Assembly (NCBI RefSeq): GCF_016616425.1
Contig: NZ_CP067101.1
Coordinates: 4,960,001 to 5,024,000 of the forward strand
Reading direction: 5' to 3'
Length of the DNA: 64,000 nucleotides
Source: Bradyrhizobium diazoefficiens
Lineage (GTDB): Bacteria; Pseudomonadota; Alphaproteobacteria; Rhizobiales; Xanthobacteraceae
This document shows positions 8,905 to 20,187 of this stretch, piece after piece. Within the stretch, counting starts at the first letter, position 1; each line of letters starts with the position of its first letter. A program made the translations under genes and the position numbers. The notes under the pieces were generated by a model. That model searched no databases. It saw only the letters and a program-made list of their open reading frames with translations, and was not told where the DNA came from.

Positions 8905-9029
8905 TACGACTGCATCCTGTCCGTGGCAGCGGCGACGCTTTGCTGATGTCGCCGCCGCTAATTATCAGCGAAAAGCAGATCGGCGACATTGTTGGCGCCA
9001 TCCATCGAGCGTTGAATACAGTCGACTGA
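8905..9029 (+). pseudogene. C-terminal scrap of a class III aminotransferase
   Basis: The frame ending at 9029 encodes VRGSGDALLMSPPLIISEK followed by QIGDIVGAIHRALN, the characteristic last 35-40 residues of PLP-dependent class III (omega) aminotransferases, whose usual form is D-x-x-x-x-x-PPL(I/V)I-x-x-x-(E/Q)I-x-x-(I/L)V. Nothing upstream resembles the lysine-bearing catalytic core. It is a residue of a deleted gene lying just outside the CTAG end of the broken IS, so the deletion history here involved at least two genes. Confidence 0.68.
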
Positions 9030-9143
9030 CGATCTTCCCAAACCTGATGGCACCTCTCGATCGGCTGAGAGGTCGGCGAGGCGTCGTTGCGCTCGATCTT
9101 CGACAGCGGCGTCCGCGAGAAGTCCGTGTGCTCGGGCCAATTT

Positions 9144-9178
9144 GGCCATGGATGCTTGGCCATCCATGGCCTTTTTTT
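9144..9178 (+). terminator. Strong rho-independent terminator
   Basis: A perfect 11-bp stem (GGCCATGGATG at 9144-9154 pairing with 9161-9171) with a 6-nt loop is followed by seven T residues (9172-9178). It lies 115 bp after the aminotransferase scrap and probably ended that lost gene's transcript. The rest of 9030-9445 shows no coding signal apart from the ribosome-binding site of the next gene. Confidence 0.85.
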
Positions 9179-9445
9179 CAAACTTAAAAAGCCATCTTGA
9201 CCCCGTCGGCTTGTTCGACCATCATGTCTCTCAGCTCCCAAATAGGCAGCACGCCCACCAGACGGTGACCATCTGGTTCGCTGCAACAAAGCAGTGGAAA
9301 ACTTTTTGTGCGCGTGCCGCCCAAATGTTGACAGCACCTGAAGCGCTCAGGGTTCGTCAACGAATTTTACGCATCAGAGCGATTTGCCGGACAGCAGTGG
9401 ACCCTGCGATGATCGAGCCCGTGCCAAAGTCGGCAGGAGGACGGG

Positions 9446-10582
9446 TTGGATCAGCATTCGATCAGCGAGAATAGTGAGCCTGGGGAGAACCCGCAGCACG
9501 CGCCGGAGCAGGCGGCGGCTCCCAACATTGCTGCCCTCCCCCTGCCCTTCGCTTTTCCTAGGTTGAGGCACGTTCATCGCCTTGACGAGGAACACGAGAG
9601 CCCGCGGGGTCCTGGCGACCTTGCGCCGTTCATTCAACAAATCGACGCCTCGAATGATTCTTCTGAGGCTCTGCGAACGCCGTTGCCTCCCAACCCTTTT
9701 GAGCTCGGCGCCGCGAACAACACCACGCTCGACGTCTTCCGGCATGTGCCTATGGCTGAAATCGCAATACGGAACCGACTGCGTGGCGTGGTCGAGGCCT
9801 CGGTCTCGAAATTGATGGATTCGATCGCCGAACGCGGCCTTATCCATCCGCTCGTCGTCCGGCCGGACCCGACCGACGCAGACAAGTTTGTACTCGTTAG
9901 CGGGTTGCAGCGGATCAACGCGGCGAAGAATCTCGGAAACCACGAGATACTTTGCCGGGTGGTTGCTCTCGACGAGTCCAATGCGGAGTTGTGGGAGGTC
10001 GACGAGAATCTGGCGAGGGCGACCCTTAGCCCTGCCGACGAAGCTCGATTCATGGCCCGCCGCCGCGAGATATACGAACTGCGGCACGGGAAGGGCAACG
10101 GCCAGGCCAAAGGCGCGGCTGCCGCCAACGCGAGACGGGGACGGCGACACGCTGCCGCCATGTTGGCGCGAGCGTCGTTTTCGGAGAATACCGCCAATCA
10201 GACGGGGCGATCGCAGCGTACGATCCAGCGGGCGATCCAGCGAGCGGACCAAAACGGCTCCGCCACGCTGACGCGGGTCGCCGGGACAGCCCTCGATACC
10301 GGCGCCGAGCTCGACGCCCTGCCCCACCTCCCGCCCGCCACCCGGGCGCAGCTCATCGAACAGGCCGCGGCAGGCGCCAAGGTTTCTGCGGTGCAGGCAC
10401 GAAAGAAGATGCGTGAGCCAACCGCGGCGGAAGGTCTGGACGCGGCTGAGGCCTTGTCGGCGCCAGATTCAATTGAAGCCGAAAGCGACTTTTCGGGACT
10501 GTCAGCGCTGAAGGCGGCCTGGCTCGGTGCTTCGAATTCGGCCCGAGAGACCTTCCTCGACTGGATCGAGGGCTTCAAATGA
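9446..10582 (+). CDS. ParB N-terminal-domain protein of the island
   Basis: 378 residues. The TTG start has a strong AGGAGG 5 bp upstream (9435-9440). After a low-complexity N-terminus (about 1-95), a ParB/Srx-type domain is recognisable (about 97-205): VPMAEIAIRNRLRG, LMDSIAERGLIHPLVVRP, FVLVSGLQRINAAKNLG and WEVDENLARATLSPADEA. A basic stretch and an HTH-like segment (SENTANQTGRSQRTIQRAIQ) follow. ParB-like proteins bind centromere-like DNA or act as regulators. No parA is present in the window, so classical partition is doubtful. It overlaps the next gene by 4 bp (ATGA), so the two form an operon. It may act on the ACTAGT array at 13816, which is untested inference. Confidence 0.82.
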   Translation: MDQHSISENSEPGENPQHAPEQAAAPNIAALPLPFAFPRLRHVHRLDEEHESPRGPGDLAPFIQQIDASNDSSEALRTPLPPNPFELGAANNTTLDVFRHVPMAEIAIRNRLRGVVEASVSKLMDSIAERGLIHPLVVRPDPTDADKFVLVSGLQRINAAKNLGNHEILCRVVALDESNAELWEVDENLARATLSPADEARFMARRREIYELRHGKGNGQAKGAAAANARRGRRHAAAMLARASFSENTANQTGRSQRTIQRAIQRADQNGSATLTRVAGTALDTGAELDALPHLPPATRAQLIEQAAAGAKVSAVQARKKMREPTAAEGLDAAEALSAPDSIEAESDFSGLSALKAAWLGASNSARETFLDWIEGFK

Positions 10583-11304
10583 GCGTTCGTGCAACGACTT
10601 GGGCCTGGAACAGGAAAATCTCCTCCACTGAGAAGCTGGTGCTGTTGGAGCTCTCCGACCGCGTCAACGACAAACGCGGCGACGATGCCTGCTGGCCCGA
10701 ACAGGAGACGATCGCCCAGCGGACAGGCTTCACCTCACGGACGGTGAATTCCGCGCTCAAGGCTTTGGAGACGAAAGGGCTCATCAAACGTCAACGGCGG
10801 ATGATTAACGGCAGGCGCACCTCCGACCGGATTACCGTCCTGATCAAGCAGCTTGAGGTGAATTCTCCTGCGGCACAGGCACCCGATCCCGATCCGTGCC
10901 CCGCGGAGCAACCTGAAGTTAATTCGGGTAGCAACCGGAAGGAAATTCCGGAAGATACCGGAACGACGTTCAGGGTAATCGGAAAGGATAAACCGACAAG
11001 ACTGAAACAAGACAACCCGGCGGCCTTCTTCCCCGAGTTCTTCGAGCCCAACCGTCCCGATCTCGACGCGTGGAACTATGCAGGCCGCACCATAGTGGAG
11101 ATTTCGGCCCAACTCGGCACGGCTATCGATTGGGATTCACCTGGCATCCAAAACCTGTGGCCCGTCGTCGGATGGCTAAAGCGCCTGGGAGATCACAAGC
11201 TGACTTCTTGCCTGATTGAGGTCGGCGCGCGGGCCGTGGCGAGCAACACGACGATCCGGTCCTGGAAGTACTTCGAAGCTGAGATGTCAAAAGCTGGTGA
11301 TTAG
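10579..11304 (+). CDS. Winged-helix protein coupled to the ParB-like gene
   Basis: 241 residues. The N-terminal third is a winged HTH of the kind found in plasmid and phage replication proteins: SSTEKLVLLELSDRVND, CWPEQETIAQRTGFTSRTVN and ALKALETKGLIKRQRR. A polar linker (about 95-140) precedes a C-terminal domain with PVVGWLKRLGDHKLTSCLIE and TIRSWKYFEAEM, reminiscent of the tail of replication-initiator-like accessory proteins. The start codon overlaps the stop of the ParB-like gene, showing translational coupling. Function as a DNA-binding regulator or replication-related protein is inferred only from the fold and context; no catalytic motif is seen. Confidence 0.75.
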   Translation: MSVRATTWAWNRKISSTEKLVLLELSDRVNDKRGDDACWPEQETIAQRTGFTSRTVNSALKALETKGLIKRQRRMINGRRTSDRITVLIKQLEVNSPAAQAPDPDPCPAEQPEVNSGSNRKEIPEDTGTTFRVIGKDKPTRLKQDNPAAFFPEFFEPNRPDLDAWNYAGRTIVEISAQLGTAIDWDSPGIQNLWPVVGWLKRLGDHKLTSCLIEVGARAVASNTTIRSWKYFEAEMSKAGD

Positions 11305-11342
11305 GTCATAGTCCCGATCCGGCTATCGCGTCTTCGCAGCGG

Positions 11343-11876
11343 ATGCGTATCCTGAGCCGCGGCCAGTTTCACAGGGGCAGCTCGGATGATCGACGCCACC
11401 AAGGGCCGACGGCGATCACCGGCGCGCCACTATCGAACGTAGGACTGATCCGCGCTATCGAGCCGCCGATCGACAGCCACACCCGGGCCCGGCGCACCGT
11501 TCCCTTGGTCGGCTCCACGGTGACGGCTGGCCTACCGTCGCCCGCTGACGAACATCTCGACCGCGCCCTTGATTTCAACGAATTGCTTGTACAGAACCCG
11601 GCGGCCACCTTCGCCGTCCGGGTAGCCGGCGATAGCATGATTGGCGCTGGCATCTTCACGGATGACATCGCCATCGTTGACCGGTCCCGCAGCCCGGTCG
11701 ATTGCTGCATTGTACTCGCGCTTGTGGACGGCGATTTCACTCTGAAGCGCTATCGCCGCCGTGCAGGCAAGATTTGGCTCCAGGCGGAGAACCCGTCCTA
11801 CAAGGACTTGCAGATCACAGATAGCGTTGCCTTCGAAGTCTGGGGTGTCGTGTCAAAATCCATCCGAATGCTCTGA
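11343..11876 (+). CDS. UmuD/LexA-like self-cleaving S24 peptidase
   Basis: 177 residues. From about residue 52 it matches UmuD: VPLVGSTVTAGLPSPADEHL with the Ala62-Gly63 cleavage site, ELLVQNPAATFAVRV, GDSM with the nucleophile S98, and VDGDFTLKRY with the general-base K135. UmuD normally pairs with UmuC to form the translesion polymerase Pol V after RecA-stimulated cleavage. No umuC follows; instead an exonuclease remnant begins at the stop codon. The first 50 residues do not resemble UmuD, and the start codon is uncertain because no good ribosome-binding site precedes 11343. It may still be functional as a stand-alone autoprotease. Confidence 0.85.
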   Translation: MRILSRGQFHRGSSDDRRHQGPTAITGAPLSNVGLIRAIEPPIDSHTRARRTVPLVGSTVTAGLPSPADEHLDRALDFNELLVQNPAATFAVRVAGDSMIGAGIFTDDIAIVDRSRSPVDCCIVLALVDGDFTLKRYRRRAGKIWLQAENPSYKDLQITDSVAFEVWGVVSKSIRML

Positions 11877-12180
11877 CAGCGAGACCACAGGTCTCGATAC
11901 CGTCCGCAATGAGGTCTTCGAACTGGCGACAATCAAGTTCACCCATTCGGCCGATGATTGGATTTTGGGAGCGACGATGTCATTCAGGCTCTGCAGTAGC
12001 CATCGCCTCCGATCACCCCGAGATCAAGGCCCTGACCCAGATCACCCATGAAATGGTTGTCCCCAAGCGATCGACCCGCTGGCGGTCGCCGTCGTCCGAC
12101 ACGAAGTAGCCGGATCATCATGCCGACCTGGAAGAATTCTGTCGTAGTCCCCGTAGCCCATTGCTCCGAAAAATGTAGGA
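11869..12180 (+). pseudogene. DnaQ-like 3'-5' exonuclease remnant
   Basis: The frame immediately at the UmuD stop encodes DSETTGLDTVRNEVFELATI with KF after it, the Exo I motif (D-x-E-T-T-G) of DEDD exonucleases. A frameshift near 11975 moves the homology to another frame (HPEIKALTQITHEMV, the conserved region after Exo I). A further shift near 12060 gives IDPLAVAVVRHEV. No uninterrupted frame connects these, and the later Exo motifs are not recognisable. The gene is dead. Position right behind the umuD-like gene suggests a former DNA-repair cassette. Confidence 0.7.
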
Positions 12181-12215
12181 GCAGCTTCTCAGCGCGCCCA
12201 CCGCGTGAGCTATGA

Positions 12216-12446
12216 TCACACGCGGCGGACGCGCAAGCCGACCGGCTTCGGACCTTCAAAAATGAACTCTAAGCCCCTCACCTCGAATGCTTCGCGTATT
12301 TTATCGAGCGTCCGCTCGGTCGCCCCTCGAAACCCGCCTTCAATGCGATAAATGGTCCGCACTTCGACGTTCGATGCGTCGGCGAGCTCTTGCTGCGAAA
12401 TATTCAACCAAGCCCGCGCAGCACGGATTTGTTCTACCGAGATCAT
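12216..12446 (-). CDS. Small XRE-family HTH regulator
   Basis: 76 residues consisting of one Cro/C1-type helix-turn-helix (about 3-60). The segments ARAWLNISQQELADASNVEV and RTIYRIEGGFRGATERTLDK carry the scaffold and recognition helices, followed by IREAFEVRGLEFIF and a basic tail. Such single-domain XRE proteins are common on islands as repressors of transfer or excision genes. The ORF is intact with an ATG at 12446. Its target is unknown; nearby candidates are its own promoter and the 12585 gene, which is divergent from it. Confidence 0.82.
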   Translation of the reverse strand: MISVEQIRAARAWLNISQQELADASNVEVRTIYRIEGGFRGATERTLDKIREAFEVRGLEFIFEGPKPVGLRVRRV

Positions 12447-12584
12447 ATCTTAAGACCTTGTTAAGGTTATTTTGTCGAATCACCTGACATCTCAGGCCCA
12501 CCATGAGAAGGATATTCCGACCACCAACGCAAGCCCTCGCGGGCGCTGCTACCGCGAGGAAGTCGTCAGCGAAAGAAAGTCGGT

Positions 12585-13193
12585 ATGAAGGACGTGAACA
12601 AGGCCCCTGGGCGCGACAGAAAGACTGCGCGCGGGATCCGCAGGGATGGCGGCAACCGCGCCAGTGAGCACGGCGCCGGAATGCCCCTTCCCTCTCTCGA
12701 AGATCAGGCGTGGAGATTCACAGCAGCTCCGACCTGGCCGTTCTCCCCGAATGACAGCACGCCGCTGACCTGGTGGCGCAGGTTGCCCGCGCATGTCCTT
12801 CGTGACCGGGAGCGCGCGCAAATCAGCGAGACGCTGCGTTACGTCGACGTGCTTCGTTCTGATGCCGAATTCCGGGCTGCCCTGAATGGTGACGCCGATG
12901 CCGCCATCGCGACGGCCCTGTCGATGATGCCGATTGACAGCATCGATTTTCACACCGACATCGCGATGACGGCATTGCTGCGCTGCGCGCTCGCTGGTCA
13001 GGCAGCCGCCGCGCTCGTCCTCGCACAGATCGTGGGGCTCACCGACGTGGGTCACGCCCTCTCGAGAGAACTCTCGGTGTCGTGGCTGGGGTGGGGCCTC
13101 CGCTACTCCACCGAACCCGAGAAATTCGGCGAGGCCGGCGCCGTGGTGTTGTCGGCGATCAAGGCTCACGAGAGCGGGACGAAGGAAGACTAG
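12585..13193 (+). CDS. Island protein of unknown function
   Basis: 202 residues, no family recognised. A basic, disordered N-terminus (1-35) leads to an aromatic-rich segment (LTWWRRLPAHVLRDRERAQI) and an alanine-rich helical core (residues about 90-200) with AALVLAQIVGLTDVGHAL and SVSWLGWGLRYSTEP. There is no signal peptide and no clear transmembrane helix. It is not the antisense shadow of a better gene: the minus-strand LacI remnant starts only beyond 13200. It is divergent from the XRE regulator with a 138-bp spacer. Real coding is likely from base composition and length, but unproven. Confidence 0.55.
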   Translation: MKDVNKAPGRDRKTARGIRRDGGNRASEHGAGMPLPSLEDQAWRFTAAPTWPFSPNDSTPLTWWRRLPAHVLRDRERAQISETLRYVDVLRSDAEFRAALNGDADAAIATALSMMPIDSIDFHTDIAMTALLRCALAGQAAAALVLAQIVGLTDVGHALSRELSVSWLGWGLRYSTEPEKFGEAGAVVLSAIKAHESGTKED

Positions 13194-13205
13194 CCGAGCA
13201 GTCCT

Positions 13206-13775
13206 ATCCGCTGTCACGCAAGAAAGGTCGAAGCCTAGGTCGACCTGACGCTCGCCGCCGCGATTGAGCGTCAGTGTTGCCGCGGTTCGGCCGATTGCGT
13301 CCCCATGGACGCCGATCGTGCTCATGGTCGGTGACAACAGCCGCCCGGACTCGAGATCGCCAATGCCGATCACGGCGACGGGCTGCTCTGATGCGCGCCC
13401 TTCGCGCAAGCGTCCCGCTTGACGCAAGCCAGCCATTAATCCGATCGCGTAAGCATCATTGGCCGTGAACCATCGACCCAGCAGTTTGGCGTGCGCCACC
13501 ATGATGCTCGTCGTATTCCGCTCGAGGATCAACCGGCGCGGTTCGGATAACCCCTCCGCCACCGCGTGGTCGCGAAAGCCATGCCAGCGGCGCGTCGCGC
13601 GCGGATCGGAGCCGCCGACGAAAGCGAGCTGCCGGCGTCCTTGCGCAACGAAATGCCGGTTCCCAATGTCTCGGCAATCGGAATGCGTGCGTTGCGCAGC
13701 AGGCGCGCGCCCTCCTCCGTCGCGACCGATCCGACCATGATGATCAGGTCCGCCGATTGATCGCAGCACCGACAT
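13206..13775 (-). pseudogene. LacI-family regulator remnant (effector-binding half)
   Basis: Two minus-strand frames carry LacI effector-domain sequence. One encodes ADLIIMVGSVATEEGARLLR and NARIPIAETLGT (about 13650-13755). The other encodes HFVAQGRRQLAFVGGSDPRA, FTANDAYAIGLMAGLRQAGR, PVAVIGIGDLESGRLLSPTM and GDAIGRTAATLTLNRGGE (about 13210-13660). The join lacks about 25 residues and changes frame. The N-terminal HTH and first lobe are absent. It resembles gluconate-type LacI regulators. It is nonfunctional, another deleted gene in the island. Confidence 0.72.
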
Positions 13776-13815
13776 TGATCGGGGTCCAAACCATGTTGGC
13801 TTGTTGGCCAGTCGG

Positions 13816-13919
13816 ACTAGTCGTACGACTAGGCGCAAGGTCAGATCTGGAGTGGACGACTAGTCCCGCGACTAGTCTTTCCGTTAGATCGGAGCAACGA
13901 GGACTAGTTCGCGACTAGT
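13816..13919. repeat. Array of three paired ACTAGT boxes
   Basis: Six copies of ACTAGT (one with a last-base mismatch) are arranged as three pairs: 13816/13828, 13859/13871 and 13903/13914. Half-sites within a pair are 11-12 bp apart (one helical turn), and the pairs repeat every 43 and 44 bp (about four turns). The first pair contains the perfect 16-bp palindrome CTAGTCGTACGACTAG (13817-13832); the second is CGACTAGTC twice with 12-bp spacing. A further perfect CGACTAGTCG is at 14774-14783 inside the 14070-14879 gene. The phasing looks like cooperative protein binding: operator, centromere-like site or iterons. From 13920 to 14069 nothing else is seen. Confidence 0.8.
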
Positions 13920-14069
13920 CGCAGTGAACGCTTGATTTGGCCAGTGACCTAAGCGTCGGCATGCAAGAGGCGGCGGCGCACCTGGCCGCCGCCGAGTTGA
14001 GCAATCTGGCGATTTGGAAGACTGTCGCCGACGCCGCTTCGAACGACGACGCCAGAGTCACGACGGCGG

Positions 14070-14879
14070 CTACGCTCGAGCGCCCAGAAGCCACCCAAGG
14101 AGGCGTCCCCGTAGCCCGCCGCGCTGACTGGCGCTCACAAAACGTAAAACGTCATCAGGTCGGCGAGAAGCCGCGACCATTGCAGCCTGGATGGTGTTCG
14201 GGTCGGCAACACCATCTTCTGCCTGCTCGAAGATGCTTTCGAAGGTCGAAACGAGGCCATCGCCAGCACCATTCCACTTGAGGACATTTTCGATCAGCGA
14301 TGGCCTCGTCGCAAGGACACTCGTGATGCGGATCAAATCCCCCGCCTTCGCCATCTCCACGATGCCGGAGATGTCGGCCCCCTGCTCCGAGAAAGTCTTA
14401 CAAAGCTGGATGGCTTCGGGCATCGTCACGTACATCTCGGGATCCGCTGCGATAGCGGTCAGCACCACCTCAATGATCTGCCTTGTCTTTTCGTCGGAGA
14501 CGAGCGAACGAACGATCGTATGGACGGCTGGATCCGCCTTGATCGCCTTCGCCAAGGCCTGAATGGTGCTCCTAACCTCCTCCATTACCTCGACGTTGCA
14601 TTGCTTGCGCTTGTTCTTGTCGCGCTGCTTTGCCTTGTTCTTGGCAGCGTTTGAACGCGGCGCTCTTCGGTCTGGCACGAAGGCGCTTATTTCCTTCAAC
14701 CCGATTCCCTTAGCAAGCTTCTTTACCGAAGCGATATCCTCGTGATCGTCGAAACTCGTCTGAGCCATTTCTTCGACTAGTCGTGAGACCAGCATCCCTG
14801 TACTGCCCGGATCTACCTTCGTCATCGTTATGCACGCGTTGTTGGCAGAGGATCGCGGAGCGTTACGTTCTAATTCCAC
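14070..14879 (-). CDS. Island protein of unknown function, helical
   Basis: Up to 269 residues, no family recognised. A polar N-terminus is followed by a lysine/asparagine-rich basic patch (about residues 72-95: SNAAKNKAKQRDKNKRKQ) and then a long series of amphipathic helices (EEVRSTIQALAKAIKADPAV, HTIVRSLVSDEKTRQIIEVV, LTAIAADPEMYVTMPEAIQL). It ends in a glycine/arginine tail. The first GTG (14879) lacks a good ribosome-binding site; the ATGs at 14825 or 14795 are alternatives. Lysine richness and lower GC than neighbours suggest foreign origin. A CGACTAGTCG palindrome identical to the core of the array at 13816 lies within its 5' part, so autoregulation is conceivable. Confidence 0.6.
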   Translation of the reverse strand: MELERNAPRSSANNACITMTKVDPGSTGMLVSRLVEEMAQTSFDDHEDIASVKKLAKGIGLKEISAFVPDRRAPRSNAAKNKAKQRDKNKRKQCNVEVMEEVRSTIQALAKAIKADPAVHTIVRSLVSDEKTRQIIEVVLTAIAADPEMYVTMPEAIQLCKTFSEQGADISGIVEMAKAGDLIRITSVLATRPSLIENVLKWNGAGDGLVSTFESIFEQAEDGVADPNTIQAAMVAASRRPDDVLRFVSASQRGGLRGRLLGWLLGARA

Positions 14880-14909
14880 CAGGAGAAGAGCTATCCTCCT
14901 GGACGCCCG

Positions 14910-15224
14910 CTACTTCTCAATCGTCTTGATCGCGAAGCGCACGTCCCCGACGAGGCGGGTACGGCTGCCAGTCCAGATCTCGGCGTAGAAGATGATCGCT
15001 CCGTCGAAGGTGCGACCGTCCCGGCGAACAATCGCCTCCGCGGTCCTCCCCCAGCCTTTGCGCGCGATGCGCTGGGCCGCCACGTGCCCGGCTGCGCCGA
15101 CATCGGTGACAAGGCAGCCGCCGTGGATATAGCCCTCGGCAATCACTCTGATCGAGCGATCAGGCTTGAATCGATTACAGATGCCGTTGGGCTCGACGAC
15201 TGAGTAGGCTTGATAAACTCGCAC
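14910..15224 (-). CDS. Small island protein of unknown function
   Basis: 104 residues. The GTG at 15224 is chosen because GGAGGT lies 5 bp upstream; the ATG at 15236 overlaps that ribosome-binding site. The sequence (VRVYQAYSVVEPNGICNRFK then VIAEGYIHGGCLVTDVGAAG, AIVRRDGRTFDGAIIFYAEI) looks like a compact alpha/beta or beta-rich domain without membrane segment. No family is recognised. It lies 30 bp upstream of the 14879 start on the same strand, so the two could be one transcript. Confidence 0.55.
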   Translation of the reverse strand: MRVYQAYSVVEPNGICNRFKPDRSIRVIAEGYIHGGCLVTDVGAAGHVAAQRIARKGWGRTAEAIVRRDGRTFDGAIIFYAEIWTGSRTRLVGDVRFAIKTIEK

Positions 15225-16068
15225 TATTACCTCCATGATTTTTCAAGCAGACAGCATTGGTCTGCGACCCGTGCAGAGCACGGACATGGAGTCGGGCTTA
15301 CCCGCGCAAATGCGCGGTAGGTCGGTTCACCCGCGTGATCGCGGAAAACCTGAGCGAGCTCAGGGTTGAACGCCACCTCGCAGCAAATGCGTCCGGTGGC
15401 GCAGCTTCGATATATGGACCCGCCATCCCGTTTGTCCAGCTGGACGGAAAATAGCGTTAACGAGAATTAAGATCTCTGAGCAACTCCTCATGAGAGGACG
15501 ACGCTGCTTCGGTCCCCGTCAGCCTACCTCCCGGCACGCACGAATCTTAGAGCGCCAAGACGTCCTCTGAAGCAAACACACACACAGAAGTCACTGATAC
15601 GGCTGACGCATGGAAAGCATGGCAGGCCAAAAGCAGGATGGATCGAGCATCTCAGAGGGAGCGATGCGCAATCTGCAATGCGCAGCCGCGTACTGCCCGG
15701 CCCGGCAGCGTCCGGCCGTCCCCGGCAGTGCGCGGCAAGCCACTGCAGCTCGCGGCGAGGCCCAATTTTTCGGAGTAACGGGGGAGTCCGATCAAATTGC
15801 ACGTAAGCTCAAGCAAACCGCGCGGCAGCATACCACGACGCTTGTCAGCCCGCTGGATCCGATGCTTTTGGCGATCTTCGGAATGCGGCCCTTTGCGTTC
15901 CTACGGTGGGTAAAAATGGAGTAGGCGCCGGGGTATTCGCCATTCGCGGCGCCGAGCAACCCAACCAGCACATCGCGGACGTCCGCCGTTTCGAGCAGCA
16001 GCTCGCATTTGAGGAAGCAGACTTCGACCGTACTGAGCCAGCTTCGGCAGTCGCAGGGCGAACTCATC
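15225..16068. other. Stretch without a supportable gene
   Basis: About 840 bp between the 104-residue gene and the second DUF2130 remnant. Short open frames exist on both strands (for example 15257-15454 and 15610-15924), but none has a ribosome-binding site or recognisable sequence. A short CA microsatellite is at about 15574-15586. The stretch immediately before 16068 may contain a further decayed N-terminus of DUF2130. I see no repeats or RNA structures that stand out. Confidence 0.5.
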
Positions 16069-16941
16069 AAGGCGCGCGAGACCGCCCCCGAGCACCTTGT
16101 CGCGGAACTGGAGTGCTCCAGCATCACTGTGACCGAAATCAAGAAAGGCGCGACGCGCGCTGGCCGACAAATCAGCGCGCGCGACCGGCAGCTGACGGGC
16201 ATGCAGCAATTACTGGCGACGAACACCCAGAACCTGGCCGTGGCGCAGAAAGCCCAGCGGATGTCTTGCGCAAGGAGTGCGAACTGGACGACGCCAACCG
16301 GGAGCTCGATCTCATCGTCGAAAAGGTTGGAGGCGGAAGAAGCTCTCAAGGCCAGGGTCGCCGAGAAGGAGGCGCAGATCGCAGGCATGCAGCGGCAGAT
16401 CGAGGATCTGAAGCGTAAGGCCGAGCAAGGATCGCAGCAGCTGCAGGGCGAGACTTCGGAGCTCGAACTCGAGGCCCTGCTGCGCGCGAGCTTCCCCGGC
16501 GATCTCATCGAACCGGTCCTCACCGGCCAGAATGGTGGTGACCTGCTGCATCGCGTGCTTGGCCCCGGCGGCCAGGTGTGCGGCACCATCCTGTGGGAAT
16601 CCAAGCGCACCAAGAACTGGAGCCACGACTGGTTCGCCAAGGTCAGGAACGACCAGCGTGCTGCGAAGGCCGAAATCTCGTTGATCGTCTCCAGCGCCCT
16701 GCCGGAGGGACTCGAAACCTTCGACGTCATCGACAACGTCTGGGTGGCGGCCCCCCGCTTCTCGATCCCTCTCGCCACCGTCCTGCGCCAATGGCTGATC
16801 GACGTCGCGGCCAGCCGCACCCCGCAGGAAGGTCAGCAGACCAAGATGGAGCTGGTCTACGCCTACCTGACGGGCCCCTCACCGTCGTCGCCGGACGATG
16901 GCAAAGGGATCATCAGAACTACAAAAGGTTTTCTAGATTGA
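16069..16941 (+). pseudogene. DUF2130 protein remnant, longer copy
   Basis: The frame ending at 16941 contains the coiled-coil and core of a DUF2130 protein: EEALKARVAEKEAQIAGMQR, QIEDLKRKAEQGSQQLQGE, LIEPVLTGQNGGDLLHRVLG, CGTILWESKRTKNWS, AAKAEISLIVSSALPEGLE and QQTKMELVYAYLTGP. Between about 16262 and 16325 the homologous sequence is in another frame (DVLRKECELDDANRELDLIV), so two compensating frameshifts scramble about 20 residues. The C-terminal 80-100 residues of the family are replaced by an unrelated tail after YLTGP. DUF2130 proteins are cytoplasmic coiled-coil proteins of unknown role. Most likely inactive. Confidence 0.75.
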
Positions 16942-17141
16942 TTGACCGCAGTTCTATCCGCGCTCTTTTTTCGTAGCCTTTTGACCGAGCTGAAAACTGA
17001 CCAGGATAGTAAGGAAGCTTAAACGCCAGGTCTTCGTCGTTGATTTTGGCTGCATCACCGCTGGGTGCGAGCGACCAAACGTCCAATTAAGAGACCCCCA
17101 TTGCGGGGACTTGTCTGCCCCGGCATTATGACCTTCTAAGT

Positions 17142-18776
17142 CTAAGCCGAGGCAAGCGCCCGCGCGGAACGCGCCTTGGCTCGTCCTCTCGTCTTCTCCT
17201 CCGGCAACCCATTCGCCAACGCGGCCTTTCGCATTTCAACTGCCTTCGCCAAGCGCGGGTCCTTCTTTGCAGCTTCGTAGGCCGGCAAGACCGCTTCCAT
17301 CCAGATCAGCATGCCTTCGGCCTTGAACACCACGCGGTCCGCGGCGCTGTAAACGCTCTGAGTGATGGCAGCGACCTCGCGCGACATCTTGTCGGCGCCG
17401 CTCACGCGATGGTCCAGGAGCGCGGATGCATATGCACCTTCGCCGAAATTCTCAAAGAAGCTCGTAACGGACCGACGCTCGTCATGAGGGCCAATCCTGT
17501 TGGGCAGCCCGACGACAGTGAGCAGATCCGGCCATCCCGGCTTGCGTCCTGCCAGGGCATCGAGCGCGTGATTGAGGGAGGAAGGGGTAATCGCCTTATC
17601 CAGGTGGGCCGGCACGCTGTTGTTGTTACGTTGTTTGACGGCGAGAGCGCGCACAAGATACTTGTTGCGATCCTGCGGAAACGCCCAGGTCGAGACCGCA
17701 CCCAACTGTTGCTTGGAGTATCGCGCCACTCTTTCGAGGATCTCGATCGCAATGGGCGGGACGCTCAGTTTGATTTCGCGCTTGTTTTTCACCTCGTCGG
17801 GTTTCCAGGTATAGACGCGCCAGCCGGCACGCTCCGGCGCGGGATCAGGCACCCAACGATCGGAGTCCAAGGCGAGCATGTTCACCAGCGCGGAGCTCCG
17901 TTGGGGGATCATCCATGAAACCTGCAGGGCACCCAGGACCGCATCGTTGTTATTGCCCCCCAAAGGCCTGACGGCCTCCAGAAGCGCAATGAGCATCCCG
18001 ATCTGCGCCGGGGTCAGATAACGCTTCGAGCGGTCCTCCATCTCATATTCGTGGGACAATGCCTCCCACCAGGTCGCGGTCGGCTCGAGGCCGGTGAAGC
18101 GCCGCTTTTGCTTGAGTCCCCAGCGGAGGACCCGCTTTGCGAGATCGACGTATTTTGCTCCAGCCGAGGGACCCGAACCGCTGGCGTCAATGCGGTCCCG
18201 AACCTCTTCAAGATCTTCGAGGCGGAGCTCCTTTACAAAGCGCTTCTTGAGTTCGGCGTTTTCCGGTCGATCTCGCAATCGGGTCTCGAGCTCGGTAATG
18301 GAGGAAGGCGCAAGGCGCAATTTGGCTGCTTCATTTCGAGCACTATCTTTCGAACTTTTCGTTCGTCGCGCGTATTGATTAATCAGCGTCTCGAAAGTCC
18401 ACAGTTCTCCCTTTAAGGCCTCAGCGCGGTCAACTGCGACAGCGACGGACTTTTCATCGCCACCCATCAGCCTGGTTTCGATTACAGCGTCCGGATCTCG
18501 CCCGTTCTTGATCGCGAATATTGCCTCGGTGGCGATCTTCTTCACCTGAGCGAAAGTGAAGTCTCCCACCCCGCCAAGCCGCCGCTTTACGACTGTGGAC
18601 TTTTGACCTCGGACGCGCGTGCGGGCCTGAACGTAGTAAGCGACTTCTCCGCTTCTGACGCGGATGTTGAGGCCACGAGGATTATCGATGGCGAACTGAC
18701 ATTCGGCGTCCGCGTCGCGTTTCGCGGTGGCCTCGCTAAGCAACTCCTTGGTCAGCGCGTATCGCTTGTTTGCCAT
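17142..18776 (-). CDS. int: Tyrosine-type site-specific integrase of the island
   Basis: 544 residues from the ATG at 18776, which has AGGAAA just upstream; a longer frame from 18839 is unlikely. An N-terminal Arm-type DNA-binding region (LNIRVRSGEVAYYVQARTR, RRLGGVGDFTFAQVKK) and a SAM-like core domain precede the catalytic domain. Catalytic residues are visible as R in WMIPQRSSALVNML, HxxR in HDERRSVTSFF, H in ALLDHRVS, and the likely nucleophile Y in TQSVYSAADRV. It would recombine attP with the tRNA-Thr 3' end; the attachment site lies 156 bp upstream of the gene. The frame is intact, so it could still be active in excision if a partner site exists. The C-terminal tail is alanine/lysine-rich. 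Confidence 0.92.
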   Translation of the reverse strand: MANKRYALTKELLSEATAKRDADAECQFAIDNPRGLNIRVRSGEVAYYVQARTRVRGQKSTVVKRRLGGVGDFTFAQVKKIATEAIFAIKNGRDPDAVIETRLMGGDEKSVAVAVDRAEALKGELWTFETLINQYARRTKSSKDSARNEAAKLRLAPSSITELETRLRDRPENAELKKRFVKELRLEDLEEVRDRIDASGSGPSAGAKYVDLAKRVLRWGLKQKRRFTGLEPTATWWEALSHEYEMEDRSKRYLTPAQIGMLIALLEAVRPLGGNNNDAVLGALQVSWMIPQRSSALVNMLALDSDRWVPDPAPERAGWRVYTWKPDEVKNKREIKLSVPPIAIEILERVARYSKQQLGAVSTWAFPQDRNKYLVRALAVKQRNNNSVPAHLDKAITPSSLNHALDALAGRKPGWPDLLTVVGLPNRIGPHDERRSVTSFFENFGEGAYASALLDHRVSGADKMSREVAAITQSVYSAADRVVFKAEGMLIWMEAVLPAYEAAKKDPRLAKAVEMRKAALANGLPEEKTRGRAKARSARALASA

Positions 18777-18931
18777 TTCCTGGCCCTTTGGGGATACATG
18801 GGGATACACAAGTATGGAGACCGAAGGCCCGTTCCACAAGCGCCCAATTTTCGGTACCTTAATAACCTATTATACTGTCAACAAATTTTGCGCTTTGGAT
18901 CCCACCAGGCGATATCCTGTTTACAGACAAG

Positions 18932-18980
18932 CGGTTTTGTAAACCGAAGGTCGGGGGTTCAATCCCCTCAGCCGGCACCA
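18932..18980 (+). other. tRNA-Thr(TGT) 3' fragment: integration attachment site
   Basis: The anticodon arm CGGTTTTGTAAACCG (anticodon TGT), the T arm GGTCGGGGGTTCAATCCCC and the acceptor 3' side GCCGGCACCA are present, but no matching 5' acceptor strand or D arm precedes them. This is therefore only the 3' 49 nt of a tRNA-Thr gene. Integrases of this class use tRNA 3' ends as attB. The integrase beside it and the core genes to the right make this the right-hand attachment junction. No second copy was seen by reading the window. Confidence 0.8.
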
Positions 18981-18998
18981 GTTTCTGACGCATAGATC

Positions 18999-19412
18999 TC
19001 AGTTCGAAGGCTTCGGCGCGCTGCCTTGCTGGAAGTGCTCGGCACCGCTGATCCCCACCCAGGCATGTTTCGACTGCTCGAACACCGATCTGGTCGGCGC
19101 CGGAAACTGCGGATTCGCGATCGCGCCGACGGCAACGCCGATCATCGCGGGCAGGTTGTCGGCCTTCCAATAGACCGTTGAGCCGCAGTCGGGACAAAAA
19201 TAGTTGCGGACCTTGCCGCCGCTCGCGGCCGTGCGGACGTACTGCTTCGGCGCTCCCGAGATCGTGACGGCGTCCGCCGGATAGAAGGCACCGACACCGA
19301 ACGGCGCGCCGGATCGTCGCTGGCAATCAATGCAATGACAGGCCACGACGAGGCGCGATGGTCCCGGAAGCGACAAGGCAACAGCGCCGCAACTGCATCT
19401 GGCCTCGGTCAT
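18999..19412 (-). CDS. GFA-family (CENP-V/GFA domain) zinc protein
   Basis: 137 residues. Zinc-ligand cysteines are in the family positions: RCSCGAV (about 5-8), ACHCIDCQRRSG (about 25-32) and FCPDCGSTVYW (about 92-97). This is the fold of glutathione-dependent formaldehyde-activating enzyme; most members have no proven substrate. It is cytoplasmic and the first core gene to the right of the attachment site. The last 12 residues overlap nothing. The ATG at 19412 is the only sensible start. Confidence 0.9.
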   Translation of the reverse strand: MTEARCSCGAVALSLPGPSRLVVACHCIDCQRRSGAPFGVGAFYPADAVTISGAPKQYVRTAASGGKVRNYFCPDCGSTVYWKADNLPAMIGVAVGAIANPQFPAPTRSVFEQSKHAWVGISGAEHFQQGSAPKPSN

Positions 19413-19476
19413 CGAACGTGCCCTCTTTCATTGACTGAATGCGAATTGAAGGAGTGGCGCCATCATTCGCCCTCCA

Positions 19477-20187
19477 TCATTGCGTGGCCATGTCGACGCG
19501 ATCCGGCAACTCGTCCAGCCGCCAGAGCCCGAGGCTCTTGTCGCGCCAGGCGCCATCGCCCTCCTCGCAGCGCTCGTCGATCAACTTGCGCGGCGCCGGC
19601 CAGTCAAACGGCGCCTTCGTCATGTTGAGCGCGCGCCAGTCGCCATCCTCGCAATCGCGGTTGTCCTCCCACTCCGGAAACGTCGTGACGAGCAGGAATT
19701 GCGCGCCGCTTTCGCGGAAGCGGGCGGTGACGCGGGCGATGTTCTGAAAACTCAGATGCACCAGGCAGTCCCGGCACAGGATCAGATCGGCACGCGGCAG
19801 GGCATCGCGCGTGATATCGGCGACCAGGAATCGGCCGGCCAGTTCGCCGCGCGCCACACGCTGGTTGTTGGCCTCGATCAGCGACGGCACGATGTCGATG
19901 CCGATGTGGTCGAGATCGAGCTTGATGCGTCCGATCCAGTCCGCATCCCCGCAGGGCGCATCGAGCAGCGCGCGCACGCCGAGCCGCTGCAGCAATGGCG
20001 GAAGCGCCTCCCGGATCGCGGCCGTGGCAGGATTCTGCGAGCCGAGACCCGACACTGAGTTGGCGGCGCCCCACAGGTTCGTCTGCGCGATCCGCTCGAA
20101 CCGTGCGGCGAGATCGAGGCCTGCGAAATTGTCGCGGTCGGCGACGAAGCGTTCGTGGGCAAGCACGGCGGGACGATTGGCGGTCAT
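19477..20187 (-). CDS. Class I SAM-dependent methyltransferase
   Basis: 236 residues. A Rossmann-like methyltransferase: the SAM motif LLDAPCGDADWIG (about residues 74-86), the acidic ribose contact in IGIDIVPSLI, and DLILCRDCLVHL as motif IV/post-I region, with FLLVTTFPEWEDN following. The ATG at 20187 with GAGG 7 bp upstream is preferred to an upstream TTG. The substrate is unknown; the sequence resembles bacterial methyltransferases of small molecules or glycans. The next gene on the same strand (20247-20966) is a second, unrelated methyltransferase 60 bp upstream. Confidence 0.86.
   Translation of the reverse strand: MTANRPAVLAHERFVADRDNFAGLDLAARFERIAQTNLWGAANSVSGLGSQNPATAAIREALPPLLQRLGVRALLDAPCGDADWIGRIKLDLDHIGIDIVPSLIEANNQRVARGELAGRFLVADITRDALPRADLILCRDCLVHLSFQNIARVTARFRESGAQFLLVTTFPEWEDNRDCEDGDWRALNMTKAPFDWPAPRKLIDERCEEGDGAWRDKSLGLWRLDELPDRVDMATQ

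Follow-up and report, generated by a model that had tools for sequence, protein, structure and literature searches.

What reads an array of short palindromic boxes on a Bradyrhizobium diazoefficiens island, and to what end, is the question raised by the 64,000-nucleotide stretch of DNA analysed here (the window). Five exact copies of ACTAGT start at positions 13816, 13859, 13871, 13903 and 13914. A sixth box, at 13828, reads ACTAGG, so that of the six ACTAGT half-sites described in the earlier note five are exact. The paired, helically spaced array itself is present in the sequence as that note had placed it. The six boxes form three pairs spanning 13816-13919, with spacings of 12, 12 and 11 bp within pairs and of 43 and 44 bp from pair start to pair start. 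Delimited by sequence, pattern search and spacing, and assigned to neither strand, the pairs read GACTAGTC-N4-GACTAGGC (13815-13834), GACTAGTC-N4-GACTAGTC (13858-13877) and GACTAGTT-N3-GACTAGTC (13902-13920). Pair 1 contains a perfect 16-bp palindrome, CTAGTCGTACGACTAG at 13817-13832, as had been claimed.

The number of boxes is less striking than their arrangement. The window holds seven ACTAGT in total, a count that is only mildly unusual (reached by 2 of 100 shuffles). The unusual part is the clustering, with approximately 0.003 copies expected per 104 bp from the window's other two ACTAGT. Across the whole 7.14-Mb genome, the three pairs are the sole matches to the pattern GACTAGTN{3,6}CGACTAG. 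The simpler form CTAG-N7/8-CTAG occurs 16 times in the genome and, in a comparison confined to the inner flanks, GACTAG on the inner side is seen in the window's three pairs alone. A dispersed regulon of this form was rejected because the genome lacks any further GACTAG pair of the kind.

The array neighbours a gene that we call X, located on the minus strand at 14070-14768 and encoding 232 amino acids from the start favoured by its relatives; the longest open reading frame spans 14070-14879. Conservation of X starts at the ATG at 14768. The X reading frames of genomes G226, G060 and G205 contain no earlier ATG, GTG or TTG, and the database relatives P0003 and P0004 begin at the equivalent ATG. 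An earlier in-frame start is predicted for P0002, P0005 and P0006, which are the closest relatives of the window X. We favour ATG 14768 from these comparisons, and an earlier in-frame start is possible in the window copy. A further CGACTAGTCG box had been reported at 14774 inside the neighbouring gene. The box is there (14774-14783) and falls within the longest reading frame, but the start favoured by the relatives puts it directly upstream of the gene.

The whole X reading frame matches no family in Pfam or NCBIfam (E 0.001) and none in PADLOC (E 0.1). Its N-terminal part alone gives one Pfam match, to a RIN1-like family (E 0.0007; 20.3 bits, under the family cut-off of 27), and other X relatives give only sub-threshold, mutually inconsistent family matches. 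In the conserved N-terminal segment a strand-like Q-x-N motif comes after a basic stretch, and from its likeness to known families this segment may be ribbon-helix-helix-like; ten N-terminal pieces or short members, however, matched no ribbon-helix-helix family of Pfam, even when E was relaxed to 10. The AlphaFold2 model of X is poor (mean pLDDT 52, pTM 0.38) and contains helices and no strand. The PDB sequences closest to X are those of designed helical repeats, which are uninformative on DNA binding. At the C-terminus (window 14070-14130), relatives share a conserved GGLRARLLGWLLG-like motif that is possibly an amphipathic helix.

X occurs in 14 of 265 Bradyrhizobium genomes with profile A1 and in 17 of 265 with the wider profile A5. 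In a family-level sample, 12 of 391 genomes and 4 of 47 genera were positive, meaning three genera besides Bradyrhizobium. For two other genera, the counts were 3 of 29 genomes in one and 2 of 18 in the second. An order-level sample of 397 genomes gave two positives, both Bradyrhizobium. Fragments and stop-bearing copies are among the matches of these profile searches. At least six X protein clusters were found among the 7996 candidates scored from a large protein database, and the two named ones are called hypothetical protein. Searched by tblastn, plasmids gave no X relative with either a group 1 or a group 2 protein as query, and phages gave none with the group 1 protein. The first member of group 2 is 21-25% identical to aligned members of the other subfamilies.

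The pair pattern recurs in the genus. The array idea survives the check, suggested with it, of whether the boxes are missing from all related islands or the spacing is lost in relatives, though the pattern, written with slightly more variation as GACTAGTN{2,7}CGACTAG, is present in only 8 of 265 Bradyrhizobium genomes. Five of the eight carry boxes 11 or 12 bp apart as arrays or repeated pairs (G000, which is the window's own genome, G008, G076, G226 and G258), and an X relative adjoins the boxes in all five. The four foreign X relatives beside boxes are 28-36% identical to the window X. The remaining three genomes, G010, G036 and G038, have a lone pair each, with spacings of 14, 13 and 10 bp, respectively; G038 has a degraded X, detected with the wider profile, about 1.9 Mb away from its pair. 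Overall, five of the eight pair-pattern genomes are among the 14 X genomes of the 265 (hypergeometric p 1e-5). A sixth genome, G205, was reached via X and has a looser array. The fetched loci, 682,903 bases in all, contain 21 instances of the form GACNNGTC-N3/4-GACNNGTC, none of them more than 1.5 kb from an X gene (in a leader, a second copy or an array). These counts refer to the fetched loci, most of which were chosen for X; L060-L063 and the greater part of the 175 kb surrounding the window's island make up the independent portion.

A scan of genome contigs yielded at least two loci, in B. vignae LMG 28791 and B. japonicum SZCCT0148. A DNA search of plasmids with window 13750-15240 gave no match. 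Viral contigs contain 13 stretches with the pair pattern, 12 of them spaced 12 bp. These stretches (L014-L026) range from 26 to 60% G+C, one is clearly terminator-like, and a search for X relatives in them found none; by sequence, these stretches look unrelated. The viral locus L016:9643-9740 holds a different tandem repeat.

Box spacing within the arrays is restricted. We compared the five arrays with at least three boxes outside the leader, namely those of the window, G008, G076, G226 and G205; G258, with one further pair, was left out. Apart from the 11/12-bp steps, neighbouring CTAG boxes are separated by gaps of 22, 22, 31, 31, 32, 32, 32, 32 and 33 bp (n = 9), which form just two classes. 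Two gaps were excluded, one of 14 bp in the G258 leader region, whose CTAG does not belong to a GACTAGTC box, and one of 5 bp in the second leader of G226. With the period locked, the gaps fit best at 10.7 bp; relative to uniform gaps p is about 1e-5, and it lies between 5e-6 and 3e-5 when the choice of period from 10.0-11.5 is included, under the assumption of independent gaps in arrays that may share descent. Counting degenerate boxes changes the set to 20, 21, 22, 22, 31, 31, 32, 32 and 33 bp and leaves the conclusion unchanged. Unlocked coherence over ten gaps, including the one of 14 bp, has no peak at the helical period and climbs steadily as the period shortens (0.67 at 12 bp, 0.82 at 10.5 and 0.91 at 9.5). 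We call the spacing helical because 11-12, 22 and 31-33 bp are near one, two and three turns. Since the larger gaps of five arrays are confined to 22 or 31-33 bp, box spacing appears to be under selection. A cooperative binding array, as the earlier note proposed, and not decayed coding DNA, would be the simplest reading of a helically spaced array that recurs in related islands.

The array lies 3' of the X stop codon in four of five cases; the exception is G226, where it is 1.4 kb upstream of X. In the window, G008 and G076 it sits between the 3' end of X and an opposing gene pointing at the array, and in the window a decayed LacI-type remnant intervenes between array and opposing gene. Since most arrays follow the X stop codon and an opposing gene faces the array in these three, the arrays are poorly placed for a promoter. 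The array is evidently not obligatory, as G214, G060 and G035 have only the leader pair and one or two extra boxes, and G158 has no CTAG array. The variant box GACTAGGC is present in exactly one copy in four of the five arrays (window, G008, G076 and G205). By eye, the spacers between boxes seem unrelated.

A second site for the boxes, absent from the earlier note, is the start of X itself. In three subfamilies a box pair with 11/12-bp spacing ends a few bases before the X ATG: the Bradyrhizobium island type, a 220-aa type (G443 twice, G501, G508, G303 and G050) and a 140-aa type (G436 twice, G452 and G058). In the first of these the pair takes part in a hairpin that splits the ribosome-binding site. 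The window's leader box GACTAGTC is on the minus strand at 14775-14782, just upstream of the favoured ATG, and its partner 12 bp upstream is degenerate. The hairpin (14776-14793, minus strand) has a 7-bp stem with G-U pairs and a 4-nt loop, and lies between the ATG and a Shine-Dalgarno-like AGGGA (14795-14799, minus strand) that is 26 nt from the ATG in the linear sequence. In G226 (L029:9839-11391) there are two X copies in tandem, each with its own box pair before the ATG.

The hairpin lies between Shine-Dalgarno sequence and ATG in all 11 island-type leaders compared. This comparison covers natural leaders only, and leaves out the weak or fragmentary G024, G038, G082, G225 and G248 and the short second G226 copy. 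The stems are 7-11 bp long with G-U allowed and the loops 4 nt; the Shine-Dalgarno-like sequence (AGGGA in nine, AGGAG in two) is 0-2 nt from the hairpin and the ATG 6-9 nt past it. In the alignment, 97.7% of 88 cells are paired and the only two unpaired cells are at the outermost pair. Both sides have changed in three of eight pairs, as in 5 of 500 shuffles, and none of 500 shuffles reached the observed pairing or covariation score; the shuffles take no account of relatedness among leaders. Seven cells are wobbles, with G-U on the sense strand, and shifting the partner by 1-3 columns reduces pairing to 40% or less. The leader matches the expectation for a split Shine-Dalgarno site whose hairpin has been kept by compensatory change, as far as alignment can indicate. 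Group 2 and 3 leaders have no comparable hairpin by eye, and a short one is possible in some. Among the weaker matches, G038 keeps a degenerate box pair before an ATG, G024 retains a single CTAG ahead of an ATG, and in G082 a 13-bp pair lies at a distance of about 100 bp from the X match; we found no CTAG pair in the G225 and G248 stretches. The leaders of G008, G076, G205 and G158 have lost CTAG, and since the first three retain it in their arrays, leader and array may be read in different ways. An Rfam search of window 9000-19500 with E up to 1 returned only a sub-threshold tRNA match.

The module is found on integrative elements. The window array is probably about 5 kb inside the right end of its island, as judged from a repeat at 18930-18986, a 57-bp copy (98%) of the 3' part of a tRNA-Thr(TGT) gene. 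The tRNA gene is 165 kb away (G000:C1:4813908-4813982), and gene and copy are likely to be the ends of a 165-kb island; a shorter match (49 bp, 96%) is found elsewhere in the genome. A recombinase-like gene (17142-18839) lies between the array and this end of the island. It has only a weak Arm-DNA-bind_3 match, and the G076 stretch contains a gene with 93% identity to it over 541 residues. On the other side, next to the array, is the LacI/GntR-type regulator remnant (13220-13790, minus strand), which is apparently frameshifted and was judged above about 13660 by eye from the list of reading frames. This remnant is not part of the module. An operon-like trio at L027:9748-13009 encodes an unnamed protein (family Y), an AAA ATPase and an RNase_T exonuclease; family Y is near X in eight genomes, the window's among them (12585-13193), and the 175 kb surrounding the island match Y in three places and the trio's ATPase in two.

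Genes for mobility and partition accompany X elsewhere. By BLAST clusters, each named through Pfam or NCBIfam from one representative, nine of the ten stretches of groups 2 and 3 contain a MobF relaxase relative and six of the ten a relative of the TraD-like coupling protein, and all six group 2 stretches have a large serine recombinase. In G158 and G258, X adjoins a ParA-like gene and a MobV-like relaxase gene, the relaxase representative scoring 37 bits against a curated cut-off of 100. Only G076, G158 and G258 have the ParA-like cluster near X, and in each of them a small gene of its own follows it. One group 2 representative matches CbiA/ParA weakly, with a score under the cut-off; genes near other arrays are partly annotated. 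In the same three genomes a CTAG-N8-CTAG inverted repeat is found at or just upstream of the start of the MobV-like reading frame near X, and these repeats are candidate oriT sequences. Their positions are L028:15598-15613, L030:12517-12532 and L055:7239-7254, and that in L030 has a paired change from U-A to C-G.

We propose, with slightly better than even confidence, that X is an autoregulated, element-encoded DNA-binding protein and that the array is its cooperative centromere-like or relaxosome-like platform. X would recognise the palindromic box GACTAGTC, with core GACNNGTC, and would control its own synthesis via the box pair at its translation start. It would coat the array cooperatively, with one protomer pair per box on a single face of the helix. 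The resulting nucleoprotein platform could then serve either maintenance, in a partition-like manner, or transfer of the integrative element.

Other readings of the boxes fit parts of these data. That the array is chance or decayed sequence without function is scarcely credible: it does abut a decayed LacI-type gene, and the ACTAGT total alone would raise little suspicion, but a pair pattern unique in its genome recurs in related islands together with X and the spacing, and the recurrence with X contradicts this reading. The earlier note suggested as partner a ParB-domain protein encoded 3-4 kb away, and a parS-like centromere for this protein (9446-10582) is a very unlikely identity for the array. 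The protein matches ParB_N and is encoded on the same island; relatives of it and of the adjoining HTH_36 gene are near X in G035 and G060, and G035 has a box pair 93 bp from the start of the ParB-like reading frame. By BLAST, relatives of the ParB-like protein are near X only in the window, G035 and G060. With regard to replication iterons beside an initiator gene, in a comparison confined to the HTH_36 type, an HTH_36 gene is near X in these three only. The stretches around the four other arrays, 20 kb in G226 and G205 and about 60 kb in G008 and G076, contain no BLAST relative of the window's protein. Within this comparison, which is limited to the window's own ParB type, the protein is near one of five arrays while X is beside all five, the G205 array having been found through X. 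Co-occurrence thus does not support the ParB-domain protein as the common partner, and of the earlier reading the helically spaced, recurring array stands.

Two further alternatives keep X as the binding protein. The boxes could be accessory sites of an oriT, with X a TrwA/MobC-like relaxosome protein that binds near oriT and represses its own gene, which we regard as unlikely. The MobF relatives of groups 2 and 3 and the inverted repeats at the MobV-like reading frames are in its favour, as is MobC of RA3, which is reported to be autoregulated and to promote transfer (PMC4175270). However, tblastn at E 0.001 detected neither a MobV nor a MobF relative in the 175 kb covering the window's island, the G076 array is several kb from the relaxase gene, the G258 relaxase reading frame looks frameshifted, and the proposal concerns loci without an assigned nic site. 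Alternatively, the boxes could act as RNA, X binding hairpins and repressing translation at the leader hairpin while the array transcript serves as a decoy. The covariation of the leader hairpin and its presence in all 11 leaders are as this would predict, and the window array folds better than shuffles, with z -2.2 and -3.3 for its two strands in RNA form and z -3.1 in DNA form, the boxes being self-complementary. By eye, G008 has a 20-bp inverted repeat made from two boxes per arm and G076 one pair with 14-bp arms. RNA hairpins would not need the restricted array spacing, though, and the degenerate array boxes GACAAGTC, GACATGTC and GACTTGTC lack a compensating partner, some G205 boxes have no exact partner and the flanks of the window's three pairs are non-complementary, all by eye; the lack, by eye, of a comparable hairpin in group 2 and 3 leaders also speaks against it. 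A pure RNA reading of the array is disfavoured by the restricted gaps and uncompensated box changes despite the better-than-shuffle folding, and we consider the RNA explanation as a whole improbable. A combined version, to which we likewise give little weight, would have X bind GACTAGTC in two forms, the duplex DNA of the array and the hairpin that splits its ribosome-binding site. The array would then be a sink whose dose rises on excision or replication of the element, tying X synthesis to copy number without a dispersed regulon.

Our preferred reading, that of an autoregulated protein with a DNA platform, makes the module a concrete, testable candidate for the mechanism by which such islands persist, move or limit themselves. 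It combines a gene family, a spaced DNA array and a hairpin-split leader on integrative elements of Bradyrhizobium and its relatives. Boxes of one kind both beside X and just before its start codon suggest a new self-regulating DNA-binding module; a literature search for a GACTAGTC operator or Bradyrhizobium CTAG palindromic arrays gave nothing on it among the matches listed, judged by title and start of abstract.

Several known systems resemble parts of the module. The trp operator also has CTAG-containing paired half-sites, with a different spacing and a different protein; no Pfam domain was found in X. In parC/ParR and other ribbon-helix-helix plasmid centromeres, tandem boxes lie beside the gene for their binder. 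The present module shares with ParR/parC-type centromeres the tandem short boxes about one helical turn apart on a mobile element, and the array beside a small candidate binder gene with boxes at its own start. In contrast to these centromeres, the array boxes are paired and the gaps are 22 or 32 bp, a search beside X showed no constant partner ATPase, and X has a long C-terminal part with no detectable known domain. TrwA is a relaxosome accessory protein that acts near oriT. X and the MobC/TrwA proteins have in common a mobile-element origin, a palindromic site at their own gene and, for several X, relaxase genes nearby, but X has no detected similarity to them in Pfam or NCBIfam and the array is not at a known oriT. 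The hairpin-split ribosome-binding site, with covariation in 11 bacterial leaders, would be of interest by itself. A review (PMC3014915) describes the same layout for phage T4 genes 25 and 38, where a hairpin between Shine-Dalgarno sequence and start codon shortens the effective distance from 27 to 11 and from 22 to 5 nt, respectively; the effective distance in the X leaders would fall from 25-35 to 6-9 nt. Unlike the T4 hairpins, that of X belongs to bacterial integrative elements and is made of the same palindromic boxes as the nearby DNA array.
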